Assembly: GCA_013373015.1 (NCBI GenBank) | Contig: JABXIQ010000018.1 | Span: 1-64,000 of the forward strand | Reading direction: 5' to 3' | From: Kangiellaceae bacterium | GTDB lineage: Bacteria; Pseudomonadota; Gammaproteobacteria; Enterobacterales; Kangiellaceae | Length of the DNA: 64,000 bases | In this document: piece after piece, positions 45,661 to 62,438 of the stretch | Layout: every line of letters starts with the position of its first letter | Position numbering within the stretch: the first letter of the stretch is position 1 | Translations under genes and position numbers: made by a program | The notes under the pieces: model-generated | Databases searched by the model: none | Seen by the model: the letters and a program-made list of their open reading frames with translations, nothing else | Told to the model about the DNA's origin: nothing

Positions 45661-46050
45661 ATGAAACTAATGACATCGTTAAGTATTCTCATCTTGTGTG
45701 TTGCTATTTGGCAGCCTAAGGGTATTGCTATGTCTACTAAACTTTCACCCCATGAGCTATCGGTCGATGCAAGTGGACATTGTGCTGAAATGATGAAGGG
45801 AAGTCAGCAAAAATCCCAACATGGCTCTATGCAAGTAGCAGAACAGCATTCAGTTATTGGTTTTTCCGAAGGGACTATGGATTGCTGTGATAATTGTGAC
45901 TGTCCAATGTTACAATGTGGGAATGCACTTTCAATGAATATTGTGCAAAGTGAATGGTTTCAACGAGATAATACTAGACTAGTCGTTGAGTACTCTTTTA
46001 CACTTCAAGAAATCGCAAAAACTTTAACCAAGCCACCCAAAATAGCCTAA
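45661..46050 (+). CDS. CopL-like secreted Cys/Met/His-rich metal-binding protein
   Basis: A 129-residue protein with an N-terminal signal segment (MTSLSILILCVAIWQPKGIA) and potential copper ligands: HCAEMMKG, QHGSM and the cluster DCCDNCDCPMLQC (five cysteines in 13 residues). Small proteins of this kind are encoded directly before copA in Xanthomonas and other proteobacteria (CopL) and help copper-dependent expression or binding. The role here is inferred from position (61 bp before copA) and composition. No cytoplasmic copper regulator (CueR, CopR/CopS pair with known signature) is next to it. Confidence 0.65.
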   Translation: MKLMTSLSILILCVAIWQPKGIAMSTKLSPHELSVDASGHCAEMMKGSQQKSQHGSMQVAEQHSVIGFSEGTMDCCDNCDCPMLQCGNALSMNIVQSEWFQRDNTRLVVEYSFTLQEIAKTLTKPPKIA

Positions 46051-46111
46051 CCACAATATAGATCCGTCTGCGTTATATAGCAGTTTTATCAATATTCTAT
46101 TGGAATAGGTT

Positions 46112-48073: not shown

Positions 48074-48090
48074 ATAGAGGGGTTAAGACA

Positions 48091-48786
48091 ATGAAAAATA
48101 TATTAGTGCTGGCTCTTCTTTTAATGAGCTTTAATCTTCTGGCTGGTGGCAAGGACGATCCAGTGTTGGCAAGTCTATGGGTTGATCAGTTTGAGTATTC
48201 AGAGCACGATAATGAATCTATTTATGCACTTGAAGCTGATTTTTGGATTGGTAAAGACTTAGATAAGTTCTGGCTAAAAACAGAAATTGAAAAGGAAGGT
48301 GATGAATTCCAACATGCTGAATTGCAAGCATTATATTCAAAAGCGATTGCACCTTATTGGGATTTGCAGCTTGGAGTTAGACATGACTTTGAACAGCCTG
48401 AAGAGCGGACTTGGGCTGTAATAGGTTATCAAGGACTGGCTCCTTATTATTTTGAAATTGATGCAGCTTTGTTTGTTGGGGATGAAGGAAGAGTTGCAGC
48501 TCGTTTTCAAGCTGAATATGAAATGATGCTTACCCAGAAGTGGGTGTTGGTGCCTGAGTTTGAAGCAAATTTTTATGCCCAAAATGATCCAATAAATCAC
48601 ATTGGTTCAGGTCTTTCTGATGCTAGCTTGGGTTTGCGCTTAAGTTATGAGTTTGTTCGTGAGTTCGCTTTTTATATCGGTTATGAAAGAAGTAAGACAT
48701 TTGGTAGAACGGCCGATTATGCAGAACTCGATGGCAAGTCTTCCAGTGAAGGCTTATGGGTGATTGGTTTTAGAGGTTGGCTTTAG
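48091..48786 (+). CDS. copB: Copper-resistance outer-membrane protein CopB (short form)
   Basis: CopB is an outer-membrane beta-barrel acting with CopA. This form has 231 residues: signal peptide (MKNILVLALLLMSFNLLAGG), then the CopB core: LWVDQFEYSEHDNESIYALEADFWIGKDLDKFWLKTEIEKEGDE, LYSKAIAPYWDLQLGVRHDF, PYYFEIDAALFVGDEGRVAARFQAEYEMMLTQKWVLVPEFEANFY and the end YIGYERSKTFG. The Met/His-rich N-terminal region of Pseudomonas CopB is missing, so metal binding may be left to CopA. The barrel itself seems complete. Confidence 0.92.
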   Translation: MKNILVLALLLMSFNLLAGGKDDPVLASLWVDQFEYSEHDNESIYALEADFWIGKDLDKFWLKTEIEKEGDEFQHAELQALYSKAIAPYWDLQLGVRHDFEQPEERTWAVIGYQGLAPYYFEIDAALFVGDEGRVAARFQAEYEMMLTQKWVLVPEFEANFYAQNDPINHIGSGLSDASLGLRLSYEFVREFAFYIGYERSKTFGRTADYAELDGKSSSEGLWVIGFRGWL

Positions 48787-48808: not shown

Positions 48809-48826
48809 TTTCACAGTATTTTCACT
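48809..48826 (+). promoter_or_regulatory. Direct-repeat operator TTTCACA-N4-TTTCACT upstream of nhaA
   Basis: TTTCACA at 48809 and TTTCACT at 48820 are direct repeats with an 11-bp period, oriented toward nhaA. Nine bases after the second half-site is GACAAT (48836-48841), a possible -10 box. The same repeat and orientation recur at 58873-58891 and 62420-62438. OmpR-family regulators bind such repeats, and one is encoded by the second gene of this operon. Confidence 0.55.
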
Positions 48827-48895
48827 AGTTTATTGGACAATATATGTTGATTAGAACACTATGTAACTCTACGGAATTAAAAAATAAAATCACTG

Positions 48896-50056
48896 ATGAA
48901 TAAAGATACTTTTCCAAGCATATTACTTATTACAGCAACGGTTTTGGCGTTGATTATTGCCAATTCAGATTTGTCTCGTTGGTATAATTTATTAATTGAA
49001 TTACCATTTGCTATCAAACTAGGAACATTTGAGATAGCCAAGCCGCTACTGCTATGGATAAACGATGGCTTGATGGCTGTGTTTTTTTTCATACTGGGTT
49101 TAGAGCTAAAGCGAGAGTTAGTAGAAGGAAAGCTTTCTAATCCTGCTGATATTGCTCTTCCTGGCTTCGCCGCTATTGGTGGCATGCTTGTTCCAGCTTT
49201 ATGTTACGCTTGGATCAATTGGTCAGATCCAATTGCAATGAAAGGTTGGGCTATTCCTGCTGCAACAGACATTGCTTTTGCTTTAGGCGTGCTTGCCATG
49301 ATTGGCAAAGGAATTCCCGCATCCTTGAAAGTGTTTTTAATATCTTTAGCTATTATTGATGATATAGGTGCAATTCTTATTATTGCCGTATTTTATACCA
49401 GCAAAATTTCAACACTTTCTTTGATAGTGGCTTTTGTCTGTATTATAGCCTTGTTTACCCTAAATCGTTTTAAGATATATCGTTTGGCTCCTTATATAGT
49501 CATAGGTTTAATTATGTGGGCAGCAGTATTAAAGTCGGGCATTCATGCTACTTTAGCTGGTGTTGTATTAGCATTGTTTATACCAATTAAGCCACAAGCA
49601 CAAACAGGATATTCTCCTGCAAAAACGCTTGAACATGACTTGCACGATTTTGTTGTTTTATTTGTCATTCCTTTGTTTGCTTTTGCCAATGCAGGCGTTG
49701 AGCTGAAAGGACTAACACTTGAAAACTTATTACATCCGGTGACTCTTGGAATTTTATTTGGCTTAGTTATTGGCAAACAAGTTGGAGTATTTGCATTATC
49801 CTTCATAGCTGTAAAGCTGAAGCTTGCCAGATTACCAGATGATATGAACTGGAAGATGATTTATGGTGTATCATTGGTATGTGGTATAGGTTTTACCATG
49901 AGTCTATTTATCGGATCGTTAGCCTTTGAAGAAACTGGCGTTAACTTACTTGTGGATGAAAGAATCGGTATTTTATTAGGTTCATTTATTTCAGGCCTAG
50001 CAGGATATTTGTTTTTACGATTTAATTTGCGCCAAACTAATGCAGTTGAGCGATAG
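48896..50056 (+). CDS. nhaA: Na+/H+ antiporter NhaA
   Basis: NhaA expels sodium in exchange for protons across the inner membrane. It has 386 residues (E. coli 388). Key residues are present: the paired aspartates D155/D156 in LAIIDDIGAILIIAVFYT (E. coli D163/D164), D125 in AATDIAFALGVLAM (E. coli D133) and the late lysine-containing IGKQVGVFALSFIAVKL segment. About twelve hydrophobic segments are visible. It is followed after 28 bp by an OmpR-family regulator gene, an unusual partnership. A direct-repeat operator precedes it. Confidence 0.96.
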   Translation: MNKDTFPSILLITATVLALIIANSDLSRWYNLLIELPFAIKLGTFEIAKPLLLWINDGLMAVFFFILGLELKRELVEGKLSNPADIALPGFAAIGGMLVPALCYAWINWSDPIAMKGWAIPAATDIAFALGVLAMIGKGIPASLKVFLISLAIIDDIGAILIIAVFYTSKISTLSLIVAFVCIIALFTLNRFKIYRLAPYIVIGLIMWAAVLKSGIHATLAGVVLALFIPIKPQAQTGYSPAKTLEHDLHDFVVLFVIPLFAFANAGVELKGLTLENLLHPVTLGILFGLVIGKQVGVFALSFIAVKLKLARLPDDMNWKMIYGVSLVCGIGFTMSLFIGSLAFEETGVNLLVDERIGILLGSFISGLAGYLFLRFNLRQTNAVER

Positions 50057-50084
50057 AAGCTGGTCATTAAACTGAGGTTTTAAT

Positions 50085-50774
50085 ATGTCTTATAGTGTGC
50101 TGTTAGTAGAAGACCATAAAGAGCTTGCCGCAACTACTGGTGAATATCTAGAAATGTGTGGTTATATTGTTGATTATGCAATGGATGGAAATTCAGGCTT
50201 GAACCTAGCATTAGAAAACCAATACGATGCATTGATTCTGGATGTGATGCTACCTGGCTGCGATGGCTTTCAAATTTGTCAGCAGGTTCGTCAGAAAGGT
50301 AAATCTGATATTCCCATTCTCATGCTAACCGCTCGAGATCAATTGGAGGATAAGTTAGAAGGGTTTGATGCAGGTGCAGATGATTACTTAATTAAACCAT
50401 TTGACTTTGAAGAACTAGACGCAAGGCTTAGAGCTATTATTAGACGTCATAAAGGAGAGCTTGATGCAAAACCATTAATTATTGGTGATCTAGAGCTCAA
50501 TCCAGCCACTATGCAAGTGAAAAGAGATGGACAGTTACTTAAGCTCTCACCTACAGGGTTGCACATCCTAAAATTATTAATGCGAAAATCCCCTGATCTG
50601 GTGAGTCGAGAAGAATTGGAGCGAGAGCTATGGGGAGATATGCTACCTAATAGTGATGTTTTAAGAAGTCATTTATATAATTTGCGCAAAGTTATTGATA
50701 AACCTTTTGATGAGCAATTGCTACAAACAGTACCTGGTTTAGGCATTAAAATCATCCAAGTCGACAAAGTATAA
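50085..50774 (+). CDS. OmpR-family response regulator
   Basis: The 229-residue protein has a receiver domain (1-118) with the acidic pocket VEDH (E9/D10), phospho-acceptor D53 (ILDVMLPGCDGF), T82 (MLTARD) and K104 (YLIKPFDF), and a winged-helix DNA-binding domain (about 128-226) with LSPTGLHILKLLMRKSPDLVSREELERELWG and LRSHLYNLRKVID. It is probably co-transcribed with nhaA. The kinase gene is tail-to-tail, 10 bp away. It resembles the ColR/PhoP branch in overall sequence; exact orthology is uncertain. The TTTCACA direct repeats before nhaA, the lipid operon and the photolyase operon are its most likely binding sites (inference). Confidence 0.93.
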   Translation: MSYSVLLVEDHKELAATTGEYLEMCGYIVDYAMDGNSGLNLALENQYDALILDVMLPGCDGFQICQQVRQKGKSDIPILMLTARDQLEDKLEGFDAGADDYLIKPFDFEELDARLRAIIRRHKGELDAKPLIIGDLELNPATMQVKRDGQLLKLSPTGLHILKLLMRKSPDLVSREELERELWGDMLPNSDVLRSHLYNLRKVIDKPFDEQLLQTVPGLGIKIIQVDKV

Positions 50775-50784
50775 TGATAACTAA

Positions 50785-52074
50785 TTATAGTATCAGCTTT
50801 ACTACAGTTCCCTGTTGCGGTTTGCTTGAAATAAACACTTTCCAGCCAAGTTGATCGCAAATTCTCTTTACAATAGATAAACCAAGACCAAAGCCCTTTA
50901 CCTCGCTACCTTCTCTATCTGCTCTAAAGAAAGGTTCAAAAATCCTCTTTAATGAATCTGGCGCTATACCTTTGCCTGTATCTTTTACAACAAGTCCTTC
51001 TTTGTTGATTTGTACTTGGATAGAGCCATTTTCAGTGTAATTGAATGCATTCATTAATATATTATTAATGCAAATTGCTAACAATCGTTCAGGAACTGCT
51101 TTTGTTAATGAGGCTTCGTCCATTTGCGTTACATTGATATTTTTATCTTCAAACAGCCTTTGAATGTGTGATAACTGTTGCTTTACTAGCATATTGATAG
51201 AAATAGCCTCATTTGACAATTTGGGCTCTTGATTTTTAGATAGTAACAGCAAAGCTTCTAATAACTCTTCCATTTCAAGAATCATAGGCTTCATTCTTGA
51301 TACAACTTTATGTTGTTGATGAGAGAGCTCATGCTTTGAGAGCAAAGACACAGAACCTTTTAATACCGCTAGAGGCGTTCTTAGTTCGTGACTGGCGTAT
51401 CGTGTAAAGTTGTTTTCTCGTTGAACGTACTGATCAACTTGATCTGCATACTGTTCAAAGGCATCGAGCAAAATAAGTACTTCAGCATCGGCTTTTTTTT
51501 CAAGCTCTGAAAAATTAAGTCGTATATCTGATCGCTCATTAACGGTCTTTTCCTCCATGATCTTTGCCAGTTTAACTACTGGTGATATAGCTCGCTTAGA
51601 GAGCATATAACTTATCCAGGCAGGAAGATAAATTATTAATAATACAAAGGCTAGGGGAGCAATACCGAAATAAAATGCTAGTTTTGTTACTTGGCCTTCC
51701 TCAAACACCAGATAGAGTCTTTTACCATCTTTTTCAGAAACATAAACTAAAGGAGATTTATCGTGACTATCTAGCCTTTGGTAGCCAATTGGCATAGATG
51801 CAATATCATCAGGAATATTTGGATTAGTTATGTCTGAACGGTCTGAAAGATAACCCGTTAAGTTCAAAGTTCTTGGAAGTTTAAATTGTGGATCATCTTC
51901 ATAATGTTGCCAAAAGAAGCGTGCTTCACCTTCCAGCGCTTCTTTTATTAAGACATTTTCAACAACTTTTGCTGCTCCATAAACACTCAATAAGGTCACG
52001 AAGCTTATTAGTGTCAGCTGAATGGCCATTACTTTGACTAGTTTTCGATGAATTCCTGGTGCTTTTGCGCGCAT
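50785..52074 (-). CDS. Sensor histidine kinase (partner of the adjacent regulator)
   Basis: From ATG 52074 the kinase has 429 residues: membrane segments at about 17-38 and 135-157 enclosing a periplasmic sensor of about 95 residues, a HAMP-like linker (SKRAISPVVKLAKIMEEKTVNERSD), HisKA with the phospho-acceptor H229 (YASHELRTPLAVLKG), and HATPase_c with NNILMNAFNYTENG, DTGKGIAP, FFRADREGSEVKGFGLGLSIVKRI. The frame continues upstream to 52320, but that part lies inside the preceding methyltransferase gene and has no kinase features. No good ribosome site is seen. It is the last gene of the lipid operon, 28 bp after the methyltransferase, so kinase levels should follow lipid-operon expression. 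Confidence 0.88.
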   Translation of the reverse strand: MRAKAPGIHRKLVKVMAIQLTLISFVTLLSVYGAAKVVENVLIKEALEGEARFFWQHYEDDPQFKLPRTLNLTGYLSDRSDITNPNIPDDIASMPIGYQRLDSHDKSPLVYVSEKDGKRLYLVFEEGQVTKLAFYFGIAPLAFVLLIIYLPAWISYMLSKRAISPVVKLAKIMEEKTVNERSDIRLNFSELEKKADAEVLILLDAFEQYADQVDQYVQRENNFTRYASHELRTPLAVLKGSVSLLSKHELSHQQHKVVSRMKPMILEMEELLEALLLLSKNQEPKLSNEAISINMLVKQQLSHIQRLFEDKNINVTQMDEASLTKAVPERLLAICINNILMNAFNYTENGSIQVQINKEGLVVKDTGKGIAPDSLKRIFEPFFRADREGSEVKGFGLGLSIVKRICDQLGWKVFISSKPQQGTVVKLIL

Positions 52075-52102
52075 GTTTTTTATTACAATATGAATTAAAG
52101 GA

Positions 52103-53137
52103 TTATTTTTTATTAAATAAGTAATGAGCAACCATCCACTCATTGCCATTAGCATAGCCGAATAATTCCGCACAAGCCATAAAGAATATGCGCCAACGTT
52201 GAAACCAAAGTTTGGCAGAATCTTTTCCATAACACTTCTCAAATACAGGTATGATTTGATCTCGGTGTTTATCCATGTTTGCGAGCCATGCATTGGATGT
52301 TTTCTCGTAATGAGTGCCACTTAATAACCAGCGTTGCTCAATACTCAACTTTTCTTGGAAATGTAAAAATGTATCTGCGGCTGGCATTTGACCACCACTA
52401 AAGAAGTATTTTCCCATCCAGTTATCATCGCCGTCTTCTGTATAGGGGTACATTAAATAGCGATGGCAGAAGATATGTAAGAATAACTTCCCGTCTTCAT
52501 CTAACCAACTATTAACACTATTAAACAGCTGTTGATAGTTTCTAACATGTTCAAACATTTCGATAGAAACTATACGATCAAAAGTCTTGTTTGGTGAAAA
52601 TTCATTAATATCGGTTGTAATGATAGTGATATTTGATAAACCTCTTTGTTTGGCTTGTTGTTGAATATATTCTCTTTGGGAGTGTGAGTTTGAAATCCCG
52701 ATGATATTGCTGTTAGGGTACTTTGTTGCTAAATACAGAGTCAATGAGCCCCAGCCACAGCCTAGTTCTAATATTTCTTGGCCGTCTTCAAACTGTCCTC
52801 TTTCACAGTAAAGCTCAAGCATGAGCTGCTCAGCGTCTGTTAGTGAAATGGTTTCTGGATACCAATAAGCTGAACTGTATTTTAAGTTTCCACCCAAAGC
52901 ATAATGATAAAATTCTGCAGGAACTTCGTAGTGTTGTTGATTGGCTTCTTCGGTTTTGATAGCAATTTTACTCTGCTTGAGTTCTTCTAAGAAGTTTGTG
53001 AAGCGCTGTGATTGAATTTCACAATTGTGTGCGTACTCCTCTTCAAGGCGCTGCTTGCATAACTTTCTAATGCCGCTTCTAATAATAGTATCTGGCATTA
53101 AACCTTTTTCAACTAACTTAATTGCTTGTCCAATCAT
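52103..53137 (-). CDS. CFA-synthase-related SAM methyltransferase
   Basis: The 344-residue protein has the class I SAM-binding fold of the cyclopropane-fatty-acid synthase/coclaurine N-methyltransferase group: QQHYEVPAEFYHYALGGNLKYSSAYW (69-93), glycine motif ILELGCGWGSLTLYLA (122-137), ISNSHSQREYI, SIEMFEHVRNYQQLF and HIFCHRYLMYPY. It lacks the N-terminal CFA lipid-binding domain of the other synthase in the operon (54519-55787), so it probably methylates a different lipid or lipid intermediate. In bacteria making methylated furan fatty acids, a second such methylase works with flavin and desaturase partners; that role here is speculation. Start codon overlaps the DUF1295 stop (ATGA). Confidence 0.85.
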   Translation of the reverse strand: MIGQAIKLVEKGLMPDTIIRSGIRKLCKQRLEEEYAHNCEIQSQRFTNFLEELKQSKIAIKTEEANQQHYEVPAEFYHYALGGNLKYSSAYWYPETISLTDAEQLMLELYCERGQFEDGQEILELGCGWGSLTLYLATKYPNSNIIGISNSHSQREYIQQQAKQRGLSNITIITTDINEFSPNKTFDRIVSIEMFEHVRNYQQLFNSVNSWLDEDGKLFLHIFCHRYLMYPYTEDGDDNWMGKYFFSGGQMPAADTFLHFQEKLSIEQRWLLSGTHYEKTSNAWLANMDKHRDQIIPVFEKCYGKDSAKLWFQRWRIFFMACAELFGYANGNEWMVAHYLFNKK

Positions 53138-53970
53138 GATATATCCTCAACTGCCTTGGGTTTTCCTAAGAAAAATTTATTGGTTGTTTTTTGATACTTT
53201 CTGTATGCGTCGCCTTTGCTGCGAAGGTTTTGCTGCTCGTTATAAGGTATGCCCGTTAGCTTTAATAGAAAAAGCAACATCACAAAAGGCGCAGCTAATA
53301 AAATAATCCAATCAATACTCAGCAAATTATTCATGGATAATCCGAATAGGGGATAACAAAACCAGTGTAACCATTCAAAGAAGTAGTTGGGATGACGAGA
53401 ATAACGCCAGAATCCGACATTACACACTGTGTTGCTTTGTGTGTTTGCCTTCTGACTTTTCTTAAACTGTATCAATTGCCTGTCTGATAATGTAACCCCT
53501 AAGAATGAAATAATTAGTAGAATCATTCCAAAGCTATCAAATATACTTGGTGGCTGCTCTAAATTTGCAATAATGTAAGCAGGATAGCTAAACATCCATG
53601 CTAAAGCGGCTTGAAAAACGAAAAATAATAGTAACTTAAATTGTAATACGATCTTTCCTTTGTAAGACCAATGCTCTCGCAGAGCTTTATAACGACCATC
53701 TTCTCGATTGACTTGATAGCGAGCAATAAGGTGCCATGCTAGTCTTGAATACCAAAGCGCTGGTATTAAAAGAATTAAATAACTATGAAATTTATTTCCA
53801 TTGGCACTTATAAAATAGACTAAACCGCACAAGACGATCAACGCAGACCATGTTATGTCTACAATATCTGTATTTTTAGTTTTAATTTGCCACAACCAAC
53901 TGGATAGTTGTAATACTACACACAGCAGTCCTGTGAACAATAAAGGGTAATCTTGAAGCCAATTAAGCAT
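53134..53970 (-). CDS. DUF1295 membrane protein (steroid 5-alpha-reductase-like)
   Basis: The 278-residue integral membrane protein has about six hydrophobic segments and the DUF1295 hallmarks: NTDIVDITWSALIVLCGLVYF near the N-terminus, LWYSRLAWHLIARYQVNREDGRYKALREHW in the middle and the C-terminal NVGFWRYSRHPNYFFEWLHWFCYPLFGL, related to the NADPH-binding region of steroid 5-alpha-reductases and isoprenyl-cysteine methyltransferases. It is likely a reductase or modifying enzyme for unsaturated membrane lipids. It overlaps the DUF2878 gene by 8 and the methyltransferase gene by 4 bases. Confidence 0.9.
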   Translation of the reverse strand: MLNWLQDYPLLFTGLLCVVLQLSSWLWQIKTKNTDIVDITWSALIVLCGLVYFISANGNKFHSYLILLIPALWYSRLAWHLIARYQVNREDGRYKALREHWSYKGKIVLQFKLLLFFVFQAALAWMFSYPAYIIANLEQPPSIFDSFGMILLIISFLGVTLSDRQLIQFKKSQKANTQSNTVCNVGFWRYSRHPNYFFEWLHWFCYPLFGLSMNNLLSIDWIILLAAPFVMLLFLLKLTGIPYNEQQNLRSKGDAYRKYQKTTNKFFLGKPKAVEDIS

Positions 53971-54514
53971 GATTAGCCTTTTCTAAAGAGGGGGTTTCTT
54001 TGTTATCTAGCTTCTTATTTAGATAAAGTATAATACCCATGGTGAGTAACCAAGCTAGTGATAATAGCATCAGCGTAAGGTAAAGCCGATCTATAATAAT
54101 CGCCCCCAGCCTCTGTGCTGCTAAATAAGAAAGAGGGCCACCCAGAGCTCCAAATATCAAGGCTATTTTTGGATGGTCAAAGAGCCATTTCATAGAATGG
54201 TTTAGAGAAAGTGCAAAAGTTACCCATAATACGCCTATCCAATATGGTGCTAAAGAACTGCTTGGCCACAACTCTTTATATTCAATTAATTTGAAATAAA
54301 CCCATAAGCTGTCTATAACCATCCCCATAGGAAGTAGCGTGGCTACGAAGTACAAATCTTTAGAGTTTCGATTTTTTGAGCAAAATAACTGCCAATACAC
54401 TAAAGTAGCAAATAATATCCATGCACTGATCATGTTGTTATTCGCCGCACCAATGACGCAAGCGAGCCAAATGCTTTGAAAGAGTATAAAATTTATTATT
54501 TTGTTTAGCTTCAT
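53963..54514 (-). CDS. DUF2878 membrane protein
   Basis: A 183-residue membrane protein with five or six segments, beginning MKLNKIINFILFQSIWLACVIGAANN and containing LPMGMVIDSLWVYFKLI, PYWIGVLWVTFALSLNHSMKWLF and ALGGPLSYLAAQRLGAI, the pattern of DUF2878. The family is almost always encoded between a CFA synthase and a DUF1295 gene in light- or singlet-oxygen-responsive clusters; its biochemical role is unknown. Gap to the CFA synthase stop is 4 bp. Confidence 0.88.
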   Translation of the reverse strand: MKLNKIINFILFQSIWLACVIGAANNNMISAWILFATLVYWQLFCSKNRNSKDLYFVATLLPMGMVIDSLWVYFKLIEYKELWPSSSLAPYWIGVLWVTFALSLNHSMKWLFDHPKIALIFGALGGPLSYLAAQRLGAIIIDRLYLTLMLLSLAWLLTMGIILYLNKKLDNKETPSLEKANHA

Positions 54515-54518
54515 GATA

Positions 54519-55787
54519 CTAGGTTTGTAGGGTGAGCCATTGTGCTCTCTTATTATTTGGCTTAGCCATCAGCAAGTGCACATCGCTTATCGCTTTTTCT
54601 ATAAATCCACCTTCGCAATAACACAAGTAAAACTCCCACATCTTTATGAATGACTCACTAAAACCTTGCTCACGAACCTTGTCTAGATTTTCTAGGAAGT
54701 AAGCTCTCCAATCGTTAAGGGTTTGAGCATAACTTTCGCCAAAGTCTTCAAGATTGATAAGCCTAAAGTCGCCAGTCCTTTTTAGGCTGCTAGTAATTGC
54801 AGAAACAGATGGTATAAAACTTCCTGGGAAAATATAGCGCTTAATAAAATCAACTGATTTTAATGCTTGATCATATCTATGGTCTTCAATGGTAATGGCC
54901 TGTATCAGTGCTAAACCATCTTCTTTAAGTAGCGAATTGCATTTTTCTAAATAAGTATCTAAATAATGATGGCCAACAGCCTCAATCATCTCGATTGAAA
55001 CTAGCTTGTCGAATTTTCCTTCTAGCTCTCTATAATCTTTTTTAAGCAAAGTGATCTGCTCACTAAGGCCTAATGTCTTAACTTTGTTTTGCGCATAGCG
55101 GTATTGCTGCTCTGAAATGGTGGTTGTAGTGACTTTACAGCCATAATGTTGAGCTGCATATATTGCAAATCCACCCCAGCCAGTACCTATTTCAATCAGG
55201 TGATCCGATGATTTGAGTTGAAGTTTTTCACAAATAGTCTTTAATTTGAGAGTGGATGCTAATTCTAAATTATTGGCTTGATCAGTATAAATAGCAGAAG
55301 AATACATCAAGTGCTTATCAAGAAATAAGCTGAAAAAATCATTGCCTAAGTCGTAATGAGCGGCGATATTTTTGCGGCTACCTTGTAAATTATTCTTATT
55401 GAAATTGTGCCAAATTTTGAGAAAACTATTCTTTAACCAAGCAAAGCCACCTTCCATTGAATCCAATAAATCTCTATTAATGACCAGTAATCTAACGAGT
55501 TTTGTTAAATTATCAGTTCGCCACTGTTCTGCCATGTATGATTCGGCCGCACCAATACTTCCGTGAGTGGCAAGTTGGCTGTAAAAACCAAGATCAGATA
55601 CAGTAACAGTGATTTTTAGTTCTGCAGCACTTTGATCTCCTAAGATTATGGTCTCTATAGGATCGTGAATGATTAAACAACCACCTGTCAATCCTGATAG
55701 TTGTTGTAATACTTTTCTTCTAATCAATGCATTAATTTTATTGAGTTTAGTGTTCATTGTGCCATCAATAGTTCTGACCTTGTTCAT
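54519..55787 (-). CDS. cfa: Cyclopropane-fatty-acyl-phospholipid synthase
   Basis: The enzyme transfers a methylene from SAM across the double bond of unsaturated phospholipid chains. It has 422 residues with an N-terminal lipid-binding domain (about 25-130), then NIAAHYDLGNDFFSLFLDKHLMYSSAIY (140-167), SAM motif IEIGTGWGGFAIYAA (198-212), TTTISEQQYRYA, VSIEMIEAVGHHYLDTY and the late VDFIKRYIFPGSFIPS. The start ATG 55787 has AAGGA six bases upstream. It belongs to the Pseudomonas/Vibrio-type CFA synthases found beside DUF1365 and amine oxidase genes. A 58-bp gap to DUF1365 is the longest inside the operon. Confidence 0.93.
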   Translation of the reverse strand: MNKVRTIDGTMNTKLNKINALIRRKVLQQLSGLTGGCLIIHDPIETIILGDQSAAELKITVTVSDLGFYSQLATHGSIGAAESYMAEQWRTDNLTKLVRLLVINRDLLDSMEGGFAWLKNSFLKIWHNFNKNNLQGSRKNIAAHYDLGNDFFSLFLDKHLMYSSAIYTDQANNLELASTLKLKTICEKLQLKSSDHLIEIGTGWGGFAIYAAQHYGCKVTTTTISEQQYRYAQNKVKTLGLSEQITLLKKDYRELEGKFDKLVSIEMIEAVGHHYLDTYLEKCNSLLKEDGLALIQAITIEDHRYDQALKSVDFIKRYIFPGSFIPSVSAITSSLKRTGDFRLINLEDFGESYAQTLNDWRAYFLENLDKVREQGFSESFIKMWEFYLCYCEGGFIEKAISDVHLLMAKPNNKRAQWLTLQT

Positions 55788-55845
55788 AACTCTTCCTTAA
55801 TAAGCGAGCCGAATGAGGCTTGCCTAAATTCTCAATTTTTTGGTA

Positions 55846-56637
55846 CTAAGTCTTTTGTTGATACTTTGGGTGTGAAAAAAATGGAGTTTTTTTCAGCCAC
55901 AACTTTAAGGCTTGCCAATATATTCGCCATACCATCTTCATTGGTTGAAAAGGATGCTTTAGTAACATCTTATTCATAATGCTTTGGGTTAATGGTAGGT
56001 GTTTTCCTGTGAAAGTAACGTCAAGCACCTTATTTTTATTTGCTGCTTTATCAGACTGTTGTTTATTGACTTTCATATGAATACGCAAATGATCCTGTTC
56101 AAGCTTAAACAACCATTGATAGTCCATATTCATGCTGACAAAGGGTGATATATGAAATTTTTTTTCGAAATGAAAAACATAACATCCAGATGGTTTTTTG
56201 TTACCTTGGCAAATGTGTAAATAGGGGTGGCGCTCACCCCATGGAGTATTAGTAATTTCTGAAACTATATACTCAAGCTCACTGTCATCATTAACACAAA
56301 AATAAAAGCAGACGGAGTTAAAATTAAACCCAAAGACGCGTAAATGTGATAATAAATACACTTTTCCCTTAAAATTGTTGCCTGTATTTTTTTGTATAAA
56401 GTCTTGTATAGATGCCTTGTTACTTTTGTTTCCGTTATGGTGAAAGTCCTTGCGGCGGAAAGAAAGTAAATTCCAAGATTCATACGAAAGCCATTTAAGT
56501 TTTCGCGCATTTGACTCCACAAGTTCCAGATCAAGCAAGCTCCAATACATGTTATAGGTAAAAAGGTGTGGACGAGGGCTATATCGATTATGTCGAATAG
56601 TGCCAATGATAAATCCTGGGTTAAGTAACTTATGCAT
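55846..56637 (-). CDS. DUF1365 protein
   Basis: The 263-residue protein has DUF1365 landmarks: GFIIGTIRHNRYSPRPHLFTYNMYWSLLDL at the start, IQDFIQKNTG, VYLLSHLRVFGFNFNSVCFYFCV, YIVSEITNTPWGERHPYLH and FEKKFHISPFVSMNMDYQW. No membrane segment or signal is seen. DUF1365 genes regularly accompany an FAD amine oxidase and CFA synthase, and the group is thought to modify membrane fatty acids, but no activity is established. It overlaps the amine oxidase gene by 8 bases. Confidence 0.92.
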   Translation of the reverse strand: MHKLLNPGFIIGTIRHNRYSPRPHLFTYNMYWSLLDLELVESNARKLKWLSYESWNLLSFRRKDFHHNGNKSNKASIQDFIQKNTGNNFKGKVYLLSHLRVFGFNFNSVCFYFCVNDDSELEYIVSEITNTPWGERHPYLHICQGNKKPSGCYVFHFEKKFHISPFVSMNMDYQWLFKLEQDHLRIHMKVNKQQSDKAANKNKVLDVTFTGKHLPLTQSIMNKMLLKHPFQPMKMVWRIYWQALKLWLKKTPFFSHPKYQQKT

Positions 56638-57877
56638 ATGCTAAGTCCTGCAATAGGGCTTCTGCAGCTTGTTTTCCAGTTCTTGCTCCATCTTCATGAA
56701 ATCCCCATCCCCAGTATGCACCACAAAAATAGCTATTGTTTTTACCTTGAATCAACTTTAAGTTCTTTTGAGCGTTGATGGTATGTTTATTGTAAACAGG
56801 ATGGTGATAAGTGATTTCTTTCCATACCTTGTTGGCGTCTATTTGTTCTTGCATATTCAGACTGACTATTACAGGAACCTTAGTCTCAAGTGACTGCAAA
56901 AGATTCATGTAGTAACTAACCGTGCATTGTTCAGAGCTTCGCTCATCTATTAGAACATTCCAGCTTGCCCAAGCACTTTTTCTCTTAGGTAAAACATCGC
57001 TATCGCTATGAAGTGTTATGATGTTCTTTTGATAAGGTATTGCTTGTAAAACATGCTGTTCTTCGGCACTTGGATTATCTAGCAAATCCAAAACTTGATC
57101 GCCGTGACAAGCAAAAATAACTTTATCAAACCGTTTGTTTTGACCATTTACATTCAGAACAACACTATCATTGTCTCTAGTAAGGCATTCCACTTTGCTG
57201 TCAGTTTGTATAGTGAAATTGCAATTGTCCGATATGGCATTAAGATACTGACGCGATCCGCCTGCGATGGTTTTCCAAACCGGTCTGTCAAACGCTTGCA
57301 TCATATTGTGGTTGTTCATAAAGGCTACTAGAAACTTAGCGGGGAACTCAAAAATAGTTCTTGTATCTCCAGACCATAAAGCACAGGTCATTGGAATAAT
57401 ATGATCTTGTATAAAGATTTTTGAATAATTATTATCATTTAAGTATTGTCCTAAAGAAATATCTGAAGAACTATTTAAAAGCTCTTTGCCTTCTTTATAA
57501 AAGCGAAAAATATCGGATATCATTCGATAAAACTTAGGGTTTAAGAGATTGCGTCTTTGGCAAAAGAGCTTGTTAAGTGTTGTGGCGTTATACTCTAAAC
57601 CTGTTATACGATTGGTTACTGAGAAGCTCATGTCACTATCTTTGTAGGCTACGCCGTATTTATCCAGCAAAGACATAAAAGTAGGGTAGTTCTCTGGGTT
57701 AAAAACAATAAAACCGGTATCGACAGCAATTTCTTTGTTCTCAACTTTTATCGTATGAGTATCTGCATGTCCTCCAATTGTCGGGCTAGCTTCATACACC
57801 GTAACATCATGCTTAGATGCTAAACAGTCCGCGGCTGACAAACCTGAAATGCCACTACCAATAACTGCTACTTTCAT
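56630..57877 (-). CDS. FAD-dependent NAD(P)-binding amine-oxidase-like protein
   Basis: A 415-residue flavoprotein. The N-terminal dinucleotide motif is VAVIGSGISGLSAADCLA (3-20), followed by VYEASPTIGGHADTHTI, the DTGFIVFNPENYPTF block characteristic of this CFA-cluster family, and the C-terminal FAD-contacting NSYFCGAYWGWGFHEDGARTGKQAAEAL. It is related to protoporphyrinogen oxidase/phytoene desaturase folds and probably oxidises a membrane lipid. Start overlaps the desaturase stop (ATGA). It forms the conserved trio with DUF1365 and CFA synthase. Confidence 0.92.
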   Translation of the reverse strand: MKVAVIGSGISGLSAADCLASKHDVTVYEASPTIGGHADTHTIKVENKEIAVDTGFIVFNPENYPTFMSLLDKYGVAYKDSDMSFSVTNRITGLEYNATTLNKLFCQRRNLLNPKFYRMISDIFRFYKEGKELLNSSSDISLGQYLNDNNYSKIFIQDHIIPMTCALWSGDTRTIFEFPAKFLVAFMNNHNMMQAFDRPVWKTIAGGSRQYLNAISDNCNFTIQTDSKVECLTRDNDSVVLNVNGQNKRFDKVIFACHGDQVLDLLDNPSAEEQHVLQAIPYQKNIITLHSDSDVLPKRKSAWASWNVLIDERSSEQCTVSYYMNLLQSLETKVPVIVSLNMQEQIDANKVWKEITYHHPVYNKHTINAQKNLKLIQGKNNSYFCGAYWGWGFHEDGARTGKQAAEALLQDLAYA

Positions 57878-58836
57878 AAGTTTTCACCGTTAGCAATTGA
57901 ATTGTTAGTGTTTAATGCTGTAGTAGGTTGAGTTTTGCTATAGCGGAGATCCCATACTAAGCCGACTTTTTCAAAAAACTTGAGAATATAATAGCTAATA
58001 TCAATTTCCCACCATTTGATTCCTTGTCTTACCGAACCTGGAAATTGATGATGGTTGTTATGCCAGCCTTCACCAAGCGTTAAAATAGCAAGTAAAAAGT
58101 TATTTCGACTATCGTCATTTGTGTTATAGCGACGGGTGCCTACTTTATGAGCCAAGGAGTTTATACAGAAAGTCACATGAGACAATAAAATGGTTGAAAT
58201 AAAAAAGCCCCATATAAGAATTTGCCAACGACTAGCCTCTAATTGCGGGTAACTACTTTCAATATATATCCCAAGCAAAAGCACTAACACGGCAAAAATA
58301 ATCGGCGGAACTATATCAAAGCGATCTAGAAATCTTAACTCAGGATATTGATTTAAGTCTTTAACGCGCTGATGCTGTGTCGGAAAATGTTTCTTATTCA
58401 GAAACCATGTCATATGACTTTTAATAAAACCGTGCTTTGGAGAATGGACATCATAGTCTGAGTCTGAATGTATATGGTGATGCCGATGATGAGCCGCCCA
58501 CCATAGTGGACCTCTCTGGGTTGAGCAGGCGCCTAAAAAGCCAAAAAACGCCTGCATAAAGCGTGAAGTCTTAAATGTTTTATGTGAGAAGTATCTATGG
58601 TAAAACGCTGTTATGGCAAACATGCGTATAAAGTAAGTGACCAAACACACTGCAATTGCTATCCAGCTAACACCCGTTACGAATGCGAAAAGACAGGTTA
58701 AGTGTATAGCGATAAAAGGAATAACTCTTGGCCAATCAATACCTGTGTATTCTCCATTTATGGCTTTAGAGCTTTCGGAAGAAAGGTTAACCTTATTATT
58801 ATCAAACCATTGGGTAAATTTCATAGAGTCAAACAT
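57874..58836 (-). CDS. Acyl-CoA/acyl-lipid delta-9-type fatty-acid desaturase
   Basis: The 320-residue membrane desaturase has all three histidine boxes: HRYFSH (80-85), HHRHHH (116-121) and HNNHH in GEGWHNNHHQFPGS (about 250). Four hydrophobic segments are visible (about 39-55, 56-78, 170-190, 198-220). It uses oxygen to insert a double bond, probably at delta-9, supplying the unsaturated chains needed by the CFA synthase downstream. Start taken at ATG 58836; a TTG at 58845 and ATG 58824 are alternatives, none with a strong ribosome site. First gene of the lipid operon, just after a direct-repeat operator. Confidence 0.9.
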   Translation of the reverse strand: MFDSMKFTQWFDNNKVNLSSESSKAINGEYTGIDWPRVIPFIAIHLTCLFAFVTGVSWIAIAVCLVTYFIRMFAITAFYHRYFSHKTFKTSRFMQAFFGFLGACSTQRGPLWWAAHHRHHHIHSDSDYDVHSPKHGFIKSHMTWFLNKKHFPTQHQRVKDLNQYPELRFLDRFDIVPPIIFAVLVLLLGIYIESSYPQLEASRWQILIWGFFISTILLSHVTFCINSLAHKVGTRRYNTNDDSRNNFLLAILTLGEGWHNNHHQFPGSVRQGIKWWEIDISYYILKFFEKVGLVWDLRYSKTQPTTALNTNNSIANGENL

Positions 58837-58872
58837 AATTATCAATGTATTAGGCTGATCCTAGTCTTTTTA

Positions 58873-58891
58873 TGTGAAATTGCTGTGAAAT
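58873..58891 (-). promoter_or_regulatory. Direct-repeat operator between the lipid operon and the lipoprotein gene
   Basis: On the minus strand ATTTCACA occurs twice with an 11-bp period (58891-58884 and 58880-58873). TAGGAT (58863-58858), a possible -10 box, lies nine bases further toward the desaturase gene. A further inverted half-site TTTCACAT (58909-58916) faces the divergent lipoprotein gene, so both directions could be controlled. The period and arrangement suit an OmpR-family regulator. Confidence 0.6.
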
Positions 58892-58948
58892 GTGAAGCTA
58901 ATCAGTAGTTTCACATTTTCTTGACTCGCGAGGACTCATAGTCTCAAT

Positions 58949-59503
58949 ATGAAAATTATATTAGCAATTATTCTGGTTTTTATATTAACCAGTTGTGCAA
59001 CGAGTGATAAAACTATGCTGAATGAGCGAGTGGATAACTATTTGGATGTTATTGAAAGTATCGATAACACAAAAGAGATTTCAGATCCCGCTAAGCGCTT
59101 TACTAGCCTTTTTGGGGATCTTAAAAAAGGTGCTAACGAAAATACCATTAAACAGCTATATGCGGCTGATTTTTATTTCAATGACACGTTCAAAACAATT
59201 AAAAATATTGATGAATTAGTTAGCTATATGGAAGAAACATCCAAAGCCGTAGATGTTACTACAGTAGATATTCTTGATGTCAGTAAAAGTCAAACTGATT
59301 ATTATCTCAGATGGGTAATGCACATGCAGTTCACTGCGAAAGGTAAGAAAGTTGATTCACGCTCAATCGGAGTGACCCAAATACGTTTTAATGAGCAAGG
59401 CAAAGTAATTTTGCATCAAGACTATTGGGATGGTGCAGAAGGCTTTTACCAACATTTACCGTTTGTGGGTTACATCATACGCAAAGTAAGAGATAGTTTA
59501 TGA
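58949..59503 (+). CDS. SnoaL/NTF2-like lipoprotein of the CFA cluster
   Basis: A 184-residue protein with a lipobox signal (MKIILAIILVFILTSCATSD, Cys16), so it is envelope-anchored. The mature part has the NTF2/SnoaL-like pattern found in CFA clusters: IKQLYAADFYFNDTFKTIKNIDELVSYMEE, YYLRWVMHMQFTAKG and QDYWDGAEGFYQHLPFVGYIIRKVR. Such folds bind hydrophobic small molecules or act as lyases/isomerases; the role is unknown. Its stop overlaps the next gene's start (ATGA). Confidence 0.82.
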   Translation: MKIILAIILVFILTSCATSDKTMLNERVDNYLDVIESIDNTKEISDPAKRFTSLFGDLKKGANENTIKQLYAADFYFNDTFKTIKNIDELVSYMEETSKAVDVTTVDILDVSKSQTDYYLRWVMHMQFTAKGKKVDSRSIGVTQIRFNEQGKVILHQDYWDGAEGFYQHLPFVGYIIRKVRDSL

Positions 59504-60036
59504 GGAAATTAGTATCCGTGTTGTTCATTGTTTTGCTTATGCAAGTAAATGCAATTTTGGCTGCAATTCCAGATCAGGTTCAACACAAAAATGGTAAAAT
59601 TTTTAGTCTATGCGCCAAACAAACCGTAACTAAGGCTTTTTTCTTCGATATCGTTGACGTTGGGCTCTATTATCCTGATTGCACATCCAATCGTTCAATA
59701 TTTGATGAGCAGAATAAGCTGCTTAGATTTTCCTATTTGAGAGAGGTTACAGGAAAGCAGTTCAAGGAAGGAGCTGAAGAGTTCCTGCAAAAGAACTTAA
59801 GCCAAGAGCAGCAACAGCACTGTTTAGCAAGCTATCAAGAAATAAATGAAAGCTATCTAGACGTACAAGAAGGTGATTTTTATGATCTCTTTCAAATTGA
59901 TGAAATTGGTTTGGACTTGTATCTAAATGGTCAATCGCTAGCAAGCTTAGACAGTAAAAGTTGTGAAAGCTTGTATTTCAATATTTGGTTTGGAGAAGAA
60001 TCTATGTCCGCAGACTTTAGTAAGTTACTCAAATAG
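59500..60036 (+). CDS. Chalcone-isomerase-like periplasmic protein
   Basis: The 178-residue protein has a signal peptide (MRKLVSVLFIVLLMQVNAILAA) and the chalcone-isomerase-like fold features of the bacterial family: LCAKQTVTKAFFFDIVDVGLYYPDC, LLRFSYLREVTGKQFKEGAEEFLQKNL, GDFYDLFQIDEIGLDLYLNG and CESLYFNIWFGEESMS. Related proteins in eukaryotes bind fatty acids, and bacterial genes recur next to CFA clusters, so a lipid-binding role is plausible. Translationally coupled to the lipoprotein gene. Confidence 0.85.
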   Translation: MRKLVSVLFIVLLMQVNAILAAIPDQVQHKNGKIFSLCAKQTVTKAFFFDIVDVGLYYPDCTSNRSIFDEQNKLLRFSYLREVTGKQFKEGAEEFLQKNLSQEQQQHCLASYQEINESYLDVQEGDFYDLFQIDEIGLDLYLNGQSLASLDSKSCESLYFNIWFGEESMSADFSKLLK

Positions 60037-60054
60037 GTTTTACGGTCATTTAAA

Positions 60055-61434
60055 TCAACTCATCAGCTGAATTGTTGTCTTTCGGGATTCTTTATAATCT
60101 ATAATAGTTTTAGGGTACTGTAGTTTTTCTCGCTGCTCATTGCTAGGATTATGAATGTCTTTGCTATTGAGTTCAGATAACTCTGGAACAAATTTCCGTA
60201 TAAAAACACCCTCGGGGTCAAAGCGTTGTGATTGGGCAAATGGGTTCATGATGCGAAAGTAGGGTGCTCCATCTGCACCAGTGGAAGAACACCATTGCCA
60301 ACCACCGTTGTTAGAAGAAAAATCTCCATCAATCAGTTTGCTCATAAAGTATTGTTCTCCCCAACGCCAATCTATCAAGCACAATTTACATAGAAACATT
60401 GCCGCATTCATTCTTAACCGGTTATGCATCCATCCCGTTTGATTGAGCTCACGCATTGCAGCATCAATAATAGGAAAGCCAGTCTGTCCTTTGCACCATG
60501 CTTGAAACAACTGGTGATCGTTTTTCCATGGCTCTTTAATGTCAGGCTTAAAAGGTTTATGTTTTACTAAATTAGGCTGGTCAATGATTATTTGGCGATA
60601 GAACTCCCTCCAAATAAGCTCAGAGAGCCATGTATCACTGTAAAACTTCTCTTCATCGGCATGATAATGATCATAAAGTCGTTCTGCGCATTGTTTCGCT
60701 GTAATGGCTCCTACTGTGAGATAAGGGGAAAGAAGGCTTGTACCTGAACGAGAGGGAAAATCTCTGTGCTTTTTATAATCTTCTACTTTAGTTATGAAGT
60801 TTTCTAGCTTGTTGATTGCTTCATGGCTTCCTGCTGGCCATAAATCTTTACGATAATCTCTACTAAAATCCTCAGTCAGCTGTTCATTAGTCATTGCTTG
60901 TTTTAACTGTCTCTTTGGCGCAGGAAATGATAGTGTTTTTCTTTCTTTATGGATCTTAATCCAAGCTTTCTTAAAGGGGGTGAATACTTTATAAGGCTCT
61001 CTATCAGGCTTTCTCACGCTGCTTGGATGCAATATCATGTCACAATCAAATTGACGAGTTTCTAAATCATTCTTTTGAGCAAGTTCTATTACGGCATTAT
61101 CTCTTTTCATTTCATTGAATAAGTATTCATTATTAAACCAAATAGACTCTGCTTGGTTATTTTTGGTTATATCGATTACTTGTTGAGGAACATCAGAAAA
61201 ATTTTGCACTGTGATGATATGCAACGGAATGTTGAGCTTATTTAATTGTTGCCTCAAAACTAATACACTATCATAAATAAAACCTATCTTAGAAGGCGCA
61301 TCAGAATGAACCTTTCGCTGCTCAGTTGCTTCAATAAAAATACCGATAACGCTATGTTTTTGTGAAGCATGATACAGAGCGGCATTGTCTTCAACGCGTA
61401 AATCGTTTCTAAACCAAACAATGGCTGTACTCAT
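60055..61434 (-). CDS. phrB: Deoxyribodipyrimidine photo-lyase (CPD photolyase)
   Basis: The enzyme repairs UV-induced cyclobutane pyrimidine dimers using blue light. It has 459 residues: antenna-binding alpha/beta domain (STAIVWFRNDLRVEDNAALYHA), and the FAD domain with SGTSLLSPYLTVGAIT, WLSELIWREFYRQI, TGFPIIDAAMRELNQTGWMHNRLRM and the electron-transfer tryptophan region GGWQWCSSTGADGAPYFRIMNPFAQS. The start is ATG 61434; an upstream GTG at 61446 sits on the AAGGG site. It follows the DUF523/DUF1722 gene by 15 bp (same operon), as E. coli phr follows ybgA. Confidence 0.95.
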   Translation of the reverse strand: MSTAIVWFRNDLRVEDNAALYHASQKHSVIGIFIEATEQRKVHSDAPSKIGFIYDSVLVLRQQLNKLNIPLHIITVQNFSDVPQQVIDITKNNQAESIWFNNEYLFNEMKRDNAVIELAQKNDLETRQFDCDMILHPSSVRKPDREPYKVFTPFKKAWIKIHKERKTLSFPAPKRQLKQAMTNEQLTEDFSRDYRKDLWPAGSHEAINKLENFITKVEDYKKHRDFPSRSGTSLLSPYLTVGAITAKQCAERLYDHYHADEEKFYSDTWLSELIWREFYRQIIIDQPNLVKHKPFKPDIKEPWKNDHQLFQAWCKGQTGFPIIDAAMRELNQTGWMHNRLRMNAAMFLCKLCLIDWRWGEQYFMSKLIDGDFSSNNGGWQWCSSTGADGAPYFRIMNPFAQSQRFDPEGVFIRKFVPELSELNSKDIHNPSNEQREKLQYPKTIIDYKESRKTTIQLMS

Positions 61435-61449
61435 TAGTACGGGCACCCT

Positions 61450-62397
61450 TTATAAATAGTTTCTTAGCCCCAGTTCGATAGGGTGGGGATTCAAGTAGGC
61501 TTGATTGCTAATATAATTAGAGCCAAACTGATTGATGTAATGATTTATTAATGTCACCGGAACTATTAAAGTCACCACGCCTTTTCGATATTGCTCAATA
61601 ATTTTTATAAGTTCTTGCTTGGCCTCGCTAGAAATATCGCGTTTTAAATAACCTAATATGTGATACAAGACGTTGGTATGCGATTTACTAGAGGCAACTG
61701 TTCTTAACGCTTGCATTAATAATTGCTCATATTCAGAAATGATGGTGTGAATGTGTTTTGAGCCATCATTAGCAACTAAACGTCCAAGCTCCTTATAAGC
61801 TTGATAACTATGAGCCATGATCAAATATTTATAGCGACTGTGAAAGGCAACTAAGCTCTTTAGCGAAGGTTTATTAAGAACCATATCTTGCCATTCGTTG
61901 TAGGCAAAAACACGATTGATAAAGTTTTCCCTAAGCTTAGGATCTGACAACCTGCCTTCTTCTTCAACAGGTAGTTCTGGCCTTTGTTTCATAATTTCAC
62001 CTATATAGGCACCAGAAGCCGAAATATTGCTGGGATTACCATTTTCGTGATACACCTTGACTCGCTCCATACCACAGCTTGGTGAGTTTCGGATAACAAT
62101 ATAACCGCTGATTGTTCTAATATCAGACAATGTTTTCCTTGCAAAACTAACCAAATCATCAGTAACGTCTATAGAATGATCATTAACCATTTTCACTCGT
62201 ATCTGTTTATTAGACTCAACAAGGTGTATCGGAGGTCGAGGAGTAGGCATGCCGACACTCATTTCAGGGCATATAGGAATATAATTAAACCAGTCATTCA
62301 TCACATCCAAGCAGTATTTGGAGCGCTTATGTCCACCGTCATAACGAACCTTTTTTCCTACCAAGCAGGAGCTAATGGCAATGCTTATTTTTTTCAT
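61450..62397 (-). CDS. DUF523-DUF1722 fusion protein (YbgA-like)
   Basis: The 315-residue protein has an N-terminal DUF523 domain (about 1-150: ISSCLVGKKVRYDGGHKR, CPEMSVGMPTPRPPIHLV, GYIVIRNSPSCGMERVKVY, cysteines possibly binding metal) and a C-terminal DUF1722 domain (about 170-305: NRVFAYNEWQDMV, LVAFHSRYKYLIMAHSYQAYKELGRLVA, LYHILGYLKRDISSEAKQELIKIIEQYRKG). DUF1722 is E. coli YbgA, encoded next to phr and thought to aid photolyase or tRNA-related chemistry; function unproven. A direct-repeat operator lies just upstream. Confidence 0.92.
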   Translation of the reverse strand: MKKISIAISSCLVGKKVRYDGGHKRSKYCLDVMNDWFNYIPICPEMSVGMPTPRPPIHLVESNKQIRVKMVNDHSIDVTDDLVSFARKTLSDIRTISGYIVIRNSPSCGMERVKVYHENGNPSNISASGAYIGEIMKQRPELPVEEEGRLSDPKLRENFINRVFAYNEWQDMVLNKPSLKSLVAFHSRYKYLIMAHSYQAYKELGRLVANDGSKHIHTIISEYEQLLMQALRTVASSKSHTNVLYHILGYLKRDISSEAKQELIKIIEQYRKGVVTLIVPVTLINHYINQFGSNYISNQAYLNPHPIELGLRNYL

Positions 62398-62419
62398 GGT
62401 AGGAGTTTTACCAAAAGCT

Positions 62420-62438
62420 TGTGAAGTTGATGTGAATT
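62420..62438 (-). promoter_or_regulatory. Direct-repeat operator upstream of the DUF523-photolyase operon
   Basis: On the minus strand TTCACA occurs at 62436-62431 (within AATTCACA) and 62425-62420, an 11-bp period. TAAAAC (62410-62405), a possible -10 box, lies nine bases further toward the gene, the same spacing as at the two other sites. That -10 would start RNA almost at the ATG 62397, so either the gene is leaderless or the -10 choice is wrong. Confidence 0.5.

Follow-up and report, generated by a model that had tools for sequence, protein, structure and literature searches.

A repeated TTCAC promoter element suggests control of a predicted photo-oxidative stress regulon by a ColR-like two-component system in a genus of Kangiellaceae

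A 64-kb stretch of DNA from a Kangiellaceae bacterium (contig JABXIQ010000018.1, positions 1 to 64,000; hereafter the window) carries three copies of a direct repeat, TTCAC-N6-TTCAC, each in front of a gene or operon. We define this tag as an exact match with both halves on the same strand and an 11-bp period, and the source genome (G000) was one of 20 genomes of its genus that were compared. The comparisons make it quite probable that a ColR-like two-component system, consisting of a response regulator (50085-50774) and a sensor kinase (50785-52074), controls a regulon here in place of RpoE-ChrR, an extracytoplasmic function (ECF) sigma/anti-sigma pair. The predicted regulon has a coherent theme, which is photo-oxidative stress.

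The first tag (TTCACAGTATTTTCAC; 48810-48825, + strand) lies before nhaA and the regulator gene and is followed by the -10-like hexamer GACAAT (48836-48841). The second (TTCACAGCAATTTCAC; 58889-58874, - strand) precedes the desaturase-headed lipid operon, with TAGGAT at 58863-58858, and the third (TTCACATCAACTTCAC; 62436-62421, - strand) precedes DUF523-photolyase, with TAAAAC at 62410-62405 and the ATG 23 bp beyond the tag. All three are exact by direct reading and exact matching, and each is oriented toward its gene, as the initial annotation of this DNA had described. That annotation had also proposed TTTCACA-like half-sites; the 11-bp direct repeat stands at all three loci, but the half-sites of the third read ATTCAC and CTTCAC, which reduces the common core to TTCAC. 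The hexamers begin 10 bases beyond the second TTCAC, equivalent to the nine bases previously counted from the 7-mer. A fourth, divergent near-tag, TTCAC-N6-TTGAC (58910-58925, + strand; one mismatch), absent from the initial annotation, faces the SnoaL-like gene and has the -10-like hexamer CATAGT at 58937-58942. An extra half-site at 58892-58896 was not seen in most relatives.

The signal is carried by the position and recurrence of the tag, not by its raw frequency. The desaturase tag is exact in all 20 genus genomes and the DUF523 tag in 17, with the other three (G005, G007, G018) having TTTAC-N6-TTCAC, a single mismatch. Half-site columns are 97-100% identical across the genus, while identity is 44-54% in the 15 bp preceding the tag and the 10 bp following it, and 49-67% in the N6 spacer; the conservation in relatives that had been suggested as a check on the repeats is thus found amid strongly diverged flanks. 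The divergent near-tag is also present in 20/20 genomes (exact first half; second half TTGAC or TTTAC), and it arose in 13 of 4000 shuffles of the SnoaL-desaturase intergenic regions. From DUF523 to the regulator, the genes are in the same order in 19/19 relatives (split over two contigs in G003), and in all 19 the regulator is 75-86% identical to that of the window. Under a first-order Markov model of the window, 0.195 exact tags are expected per 64 kb, compared with the 3 observed, and none of 200 simulations reached 3. Ten exact tags occur in the source genome, where the reversed control is matched 6 times, and the probability that 3 of the 10 fall within this 64 kb is ~0.0016.

The tag has a preferred distance to the -10 element. 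Across the 84 sites scored, the highest mean -10-like score (5.56) is at offset 11 past the second half, with the next-highest means at offsets 36 (4.45) and 16 (4.25); scores of at least 7 of 9 occur in 42/84 sites at offset 11 and 14/84 at offset 10. Scored by hand with the weights of the scan, GACAAT, TAGGAT and TAAAAC reach 6, 7 and 6 of 9, and the top-scoring hexamer of the window nhaA and DUF523 promoters is a different one, at offsets 17 and 19. Among DUF523 promoters the top hexamer is at offset 10-11 in 18/20, the exceptions being the window and L010. The start codon lies 22-24 nt past the tag in all 20 DUF523 promoters (L001-L020) and 22-23 nt past it in 11/12 promoters of a short-chain dehydrogenase/reductase (SDR) gene; this spacing predicts a transcript start at or beside the ATG, i.e., a leaderless or near-leaderless mRNA. 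In most DUF523 promoters the start codon is ~6 nt beyond the -10-like hexamer (window, 62397-62410).

Linkage, phylogeny and the tags of homologues point to the regulator at 50085-50774, the candidate favored by the initial annotation, as the best candidate for reading the tags. The source genome encodes 11 Trans_reg_C proteins, of which 8 were placed in a tree (three long ones, L086-L088, were left out). Among those 8, only the window regulator falls in a ColR-like clade of 43 rows (support 100/99), which it shares with a P. segetis protein (L122) that is taken to be ColR on the synteny of its locus, where a PAP2 gene is divergent. Branching within the clade is partly unresolved; we therefore call the regulator ColR-like and do not claim orthology. 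Outside the genus we examined 13 order-level loci (other matches of at least 40% were left out) and 80 named loci, dropping L076 (38%) and keeping the genus paralogues L062, L063 and L074 separate. Exact tags were found at 6/13 order-level loci, 7/21 of the closest named loci (40-55% identity) and 2/59 of the others (35-44%). The difference between closer homologues (13/34) and more distant regulators (2/59) gives a Fisher probability of 2e-5, for a close/distant split that follows the listing and was made after the tags were viewed. Of the 16 spacers compared, N6 was the most frequent in each of the two close groups.

Some of these loci also carry the lipid genes. In Acinetobacter sp. ANC 3781 (L118), whose regulator joins the genus clade (97/93), the arrangements are tag-SnoaL-chalcone isomerase-regulator and kinase-CFA-DUF1295-CFA-DUF1365-FAD, where CFA denotes a cyclopropane fatty acid synthase-like gene. 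One metagenome-assembled genome (MAG; L116) has tag-regulator-kinase (in two pieces)-CFA-DUF2878-DUF1295-FAD, and another (L128) has FAD-regulator-kinase with no exact tag. Two members of the clade, L117 and L123, carry a one-mismatch tag ~75-90 bp ahead of the regulator gene and lack lipid genes over the stretch read. A side observation is that ColR-like regulator-kinase pairs (L063, L065, L068, L069, L072 and others, in outgroup genera and one genus genome) often adjoin a gene for a protein with a VLMVLSGYG-like motif and a signal-peptide-like start; several of these genes are tagged, and they could represent a separate regulon.

The closest known systems are ColR-ColS of Pseudomonas, RaxR-RaxH and VgrR-VgrS, which have the regulator clade and the DNA box in common with the system described here. 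The ColR recognition sequence had earlier been described as compatible with the repeats, and this agrees with the footprinted P. putida ColR sites listed in Table 1 of PMC2689224, where 3/7 match TTCAC-N6-TTCAC exactly and another reads TTCAC-N6-TTGAC, resembling the divergent near-tag of the window. The ColR regulon differs in consisting of membrane-related genes, and the paper on the ColR regulon makes no mention of photolyase, desaturase or cyclopropane in its main text. Gene neighbours differ as well. A divergent PAP2 gene has been described for colRS (PMC8306577) and is present in P. segetis, where the tag follows the kinase gene, but no divergent PAP2/lpxE neighbour was found beside the genus regulator (not every open reading frame was profiled); it is flanked by nhaA or a YhbY-like gene (by eye) and by the lipid operon.

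The tagged genes correspond to those of the RpoE (ECF11)-ChrR system. As described for that system, the core regulon includes SDR, lipoprotein, UfaO, UfaD, PhrB and Cfa (PMC5507510), the Shewanella regulon includes ybgA-phrB-cfa and a photolyase-related protein with SDR (PMC4336711), and blue-light induction in V. cholerae acts through ChrR and MerR (PMC5241685); UfaO contains DUF1365, and UfaD has been described in furan fatty-acid synthesis (PMC7380195). The core RpoE-ChrR target genes are present among the tagged genes of the genus, and the two systems would share as targets the furan operon, Cfa, photolyase, YbgA/DUF523, SDR and the photolyase-related protein. They differ in that the predicted controller in the genus is a two-component system, with a sigma-70-like -10 element, instead of an ECF sigma/anti-sigma pair. 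Matches to the ChrR profile above its cut-off (124.5 bits) were found in 21/61 genomes, 21 of the 41 outside the genus and none of the 20 within it (of which G002 and G003 are incomplete). DUF1365 is present in all 21 ChrR-containing genomes, at a distance of no more than 12 kb in 13, and occurs without ChrR in 3 genomes outside the genus. The RpoE-ChrR promoter sequence TGATC-N16-19-CGTA was matched 7 times in 373 kb of genus loci, 36 times in 310 kb of outgroup loci (~12 of these being recurrent coding matches, by eye) and 21 times in 790 kb of control sequence. The shared targets and the distribution of ChrR look like a clean transcriptional rewiring, in which the targets were kept as a regulon while a two-component system replaced an ECF sigma/anti-sigma pair as their controller. 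Among the papers listed in searches of the open-licence literature, judged by titles and abstract openings, none described a two-component system controlling this regulon.

The regulon had initially been regarded as local; further tagged genes elsewhere in the genus genomes indicate that it is not local only. All 78 further exact tags of the 19 relatives were fetched and read; 49 are intergenic by a crude test that has no control fraction, three of the 29 scored as in-frame are SDR promoters, and 5 of the 78 sit inside one conserved coding frame. The SDR gene is tagged in 12 genus genomes and the gene for the photolyase-related protein DPRP in 6 of the 10 genomes possessing it; other recurrent tagged targets include nhaA (2 genomes), a TonB receptor (4), azurin (2) and several more. 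In the source genome, which has no match to a 70-aa SDR query and none to DPRP, one more exact tag in promoter orientation lies before a Blc lipocalin gene (G000:C45:69159). The lipocalin gene is tagged in all 7 genomes having it, exactly in one and with one mismatch in six relatives, where 43-77 nt separate the tag from the matched start. The remaining exact tags of the source genome are mostly inside reading frames, with those on contigs C9 and C20 incompletely placed; C9 (L098) has a G+C content of 60.5% compared with 39.2% for the window, suggesting possible assembly contamination. Among the relatives, a tag lies ~290 nt before a small ferredoxin-like gene (by eye) in 5 genomes (L199, L209, L219, L237, L241), and the interval may hold an unannotated gene or RNA. 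In 4 genomes (L196, L205, L216, L235) the tag is followed by a strongly conserved stretch and then a short membrane-protein frame.

We propose that TTCAC-N6-TTCAC is the putative binding site of the window regulator, and that two regulator molecules would occupy it in head-to-tail order on the same face of the helix, substituting for a good -35 element. The regulator would then recruit RNA polymerase to the -10 element 10-11 bp downstream, a PhoB-type mode of activation suggested by the promoter architecture; the phoA promoter likewise has 11-bp direct repeats and a -10 element ~10 bp downstream, although the half-site differs. The kinase would phosphorylate the regulator and, because its gene is within the tagged lipid operon, would be subject to positive feedback. 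Predicted targets are the furan/cyclopropane fatty-acid operon, the SnoaL-chalcone isomerase pair, DUF523-photolyase and, where present, the lipocalin, joined in other species by SDR, the photolyase-related protein, nhaA and others. The ColR-like system would have taken over genes that are under RpoE-ChrR in Rhodobacter, Shewanella and Vibrio, with photo-oxidative envelope damage as the likeliest signal. If so, bacteria lacking ChrR should possess a new sensor of singlet oxygen or lipid damage, and photo-oxidative sensing by non-phototrophs that have no ChrR would become directly testable.

Within the order, the kinase was matched at E ≤1e-40 in 18/295 genomes, all of this genus (up to five candidates were scored per genome). 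It has two hydrophobic stretches, at ~11-38 and ~128-160, that enclose a small alpha/beta region, and the sensor signature P-x-T-x-N-x2-G is present in 5/5 aligned kinases; relatives bearing the signature are found next to lipid genes both in MAG L128 and in an Acinetobacter. The predicted structure (5 sequences; mean predicted local distance difference test score 72, predicted template modelling score 0.43) is too weak for naming a sensor fold. Metal sensing through a ColS-type ExxE motif was rejected, as the motif is not conserved (the window kinase has EALE, whereas relatives have QALE or EALD). In Rhodobacter, activation of the sigma factor by singlet oxygen needs the furan fatty-acid genes, and singlet oxygen destroys these lipids (PMC6852236). 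Since the kinase is made with the furan fatty-acid enzymes, it could read the same damage; we tentatively suggest that it may be an envelope sensor of singlet-oxygen damage that reads oxidized membrane furan fatty acids and replaces the ChrR route.

Several points weigh against control of these genes by the ColR-like system. Over the 20 genus genomes, exact tags number 126, compared with 119 for the reversed control, which is about the level of chance; they comprise 20 desaturase tags, 18 DUF523 tags (17 genomes), 3 nhaA tags beside the regulator, 7 others in the source genome and the 78 in relatives. With raw counts at control level, the tag by itself is no predictor of a target. When one mismatch is allowed, the window is not enriched (7 seen, 4.9 expected). 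The 20 genomes are species of a single genus and not 20 independent observations, the order-level loci were hand-picked from a longer list, and the stretch read at 21/34 closer-homologue loci contains no exact tag. The other 4 of the 10 DPRP genomes have no tag, even with one mismatch, in the 250 bp read. G010 and G012 give weak matches to the ChrR model (~30 bits), and a diverged ChrR may have escaped the profile. The regulator gene has no exact tag within 170 bp upstream in 17/20 genomes, 4 of which have a one-mismatch match within the preceding gene, and we rejected autoregulation as a general feature: an exact tag reaches the regulator only via nhaA, in 3 genomes. These are G000, G015 and G017, the only ones in which nhaA adjoins the regulator in the fetched stretches; it is tagged in each. 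G010 and G012 have a tagged NhaA-like gene at another locus (58-60% identical to the window NhaA), so that nhaA is tagged in just 5/20 genomes and is an accessory member of the regulon.

An alternative that we consider improbable is that the tags are bound by another regulator, either of the OmpR type or a MerR/LitR-like light regulator, with the linked two-component system as a passenger. A MerR-like gene (by eye) does lie between DUF523 and phr in one outgroup locus (L043), and some genus genomes have second ColR-like regulators (L062, L063, L074), two with near-tags at their own operons. However, no second ColR-like regulator was found in the source genome (the three long Trans_reg_C proteins are outside the tree, and MerR/LitR-type regulators were not searched for), and the nearest exact tag to any of its ten other Trans_reg_C genes is 5.8 kb away. 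The 11-bp direct repeat suits an OmpR-type dimer, and the tag is found with homologues of the window regulator in other genera.

The tag is identical to the cre/blr tag TTCACN6TTCAC (PMC4689548), raising the question of whether it is a true CreB/BlrA site, with CreBC controlling these genes. TTCAC-N6-TTCAC also occurs ~60 nt before E. coli creD, and a CreD gene is present in the source genome. Nevertheless, control by CreBC is very unlikely and is rejected here from profiles, tree and the context of CreD. Against the NCBIfam CreB model, with its cut-off of 273, the window regulator reaches 127 bits, and against the CreC model (cut-off 356) the kinase reaches 102; CreB is outside the 50-row tree group of the regulator (100/99), and no other OmpR-type protein of the source genome exceeds 38% identity to CreB. 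CreD is found in just 5/20 genus genomes, and source-genome creD has no exact tag on its contig (C61) and no one-mismatch tag in the ~400 bp before its frame. The CreB-CreC and BlrA-BlrB systems thus have an identical DNA tag but differ in regulator clade and targets (creD); the targets of BlrA-BlrB are beta-lactamases. ColR-like regulators and CreB would then be two regulator subfamilies on one DNA word, which makes the prediction of regulons from the tag alone unsafe. The CreD family gene (G000:C61:32982-34229; L093) has no CreBC and is near an ECF-like sigma/anti-sigma pair (by eye). That the repeats are chance or promoter-composition artefacts is scarcely credible, for although raw genome-wide counts are at control level, positional conservation (20/20 and 17/20) amid diverged flanks already contradicts this, as do the preferred -10 spacing and the functional coherence of recurrent targets.

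The lipid operon occupies the - strand between the second tag and the regulator. Its first gene encodes a fatty acid desaturase (57874-58836; Pfam FA_desaturase), with an uncertain start at 58845, 58836 or 58824. This is followed by an FAD/NAD-binding, amine-oxidase-like protein (56630-57877; Pfam Amino_oxidase, NAD_binding_8), likened to UfaD by description only, a DUF1365 protein of the UfaO (furan fatty acid) family (55846-56637; Pfam DUF1365) and CFA/UfaM-like methyltransferase 1 (54519-55787; Pfam CMAS, 268 bits). Next are membrane proteins with profile matches to DUF2878 (53963-54514) and DUF1295 (53134-53970), CFA/UfaM-like methyltransferase 2 (52103-53137; Pfam CMAS) and, as the last gene, the sensor histidine kinase (HisKA and HATPase_c), with a probable start at ATG 52074, 28 bp after methyltransferase 2. 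Divergent from the operon, on the + strand, are genes for the SnoaL-like lipoprotein (58949-59503; Pfam SnoaL_2) and the chalcone isomerase-like protein (59500-60036; Pfam Chalcone_3). The photolyase operon (- strand) starts with a DUF523-DUF1722 (YbgA-like) gene (61450-62397; Pfam 2-thiour_desulf and DUF1722), followed by DNA photolyase (60055-61446; NCBIfam PRK10674, 500 bits, slightly below the cut-off of 506). On the + strand, the Na+/H+ antiporter gene nhaA (48896-50056; NCBIfam TIGR00773, 469 bits, cut-off 254) ends 28 bp upstream of the regulator gene (Pfam Response_reg and Trans_reg_C). Copper-resistance-like genes, including a multicopper oxidase and a CopB-like gene (by eye), are immediately upstream of the nhaA tag, at 45661-48786.

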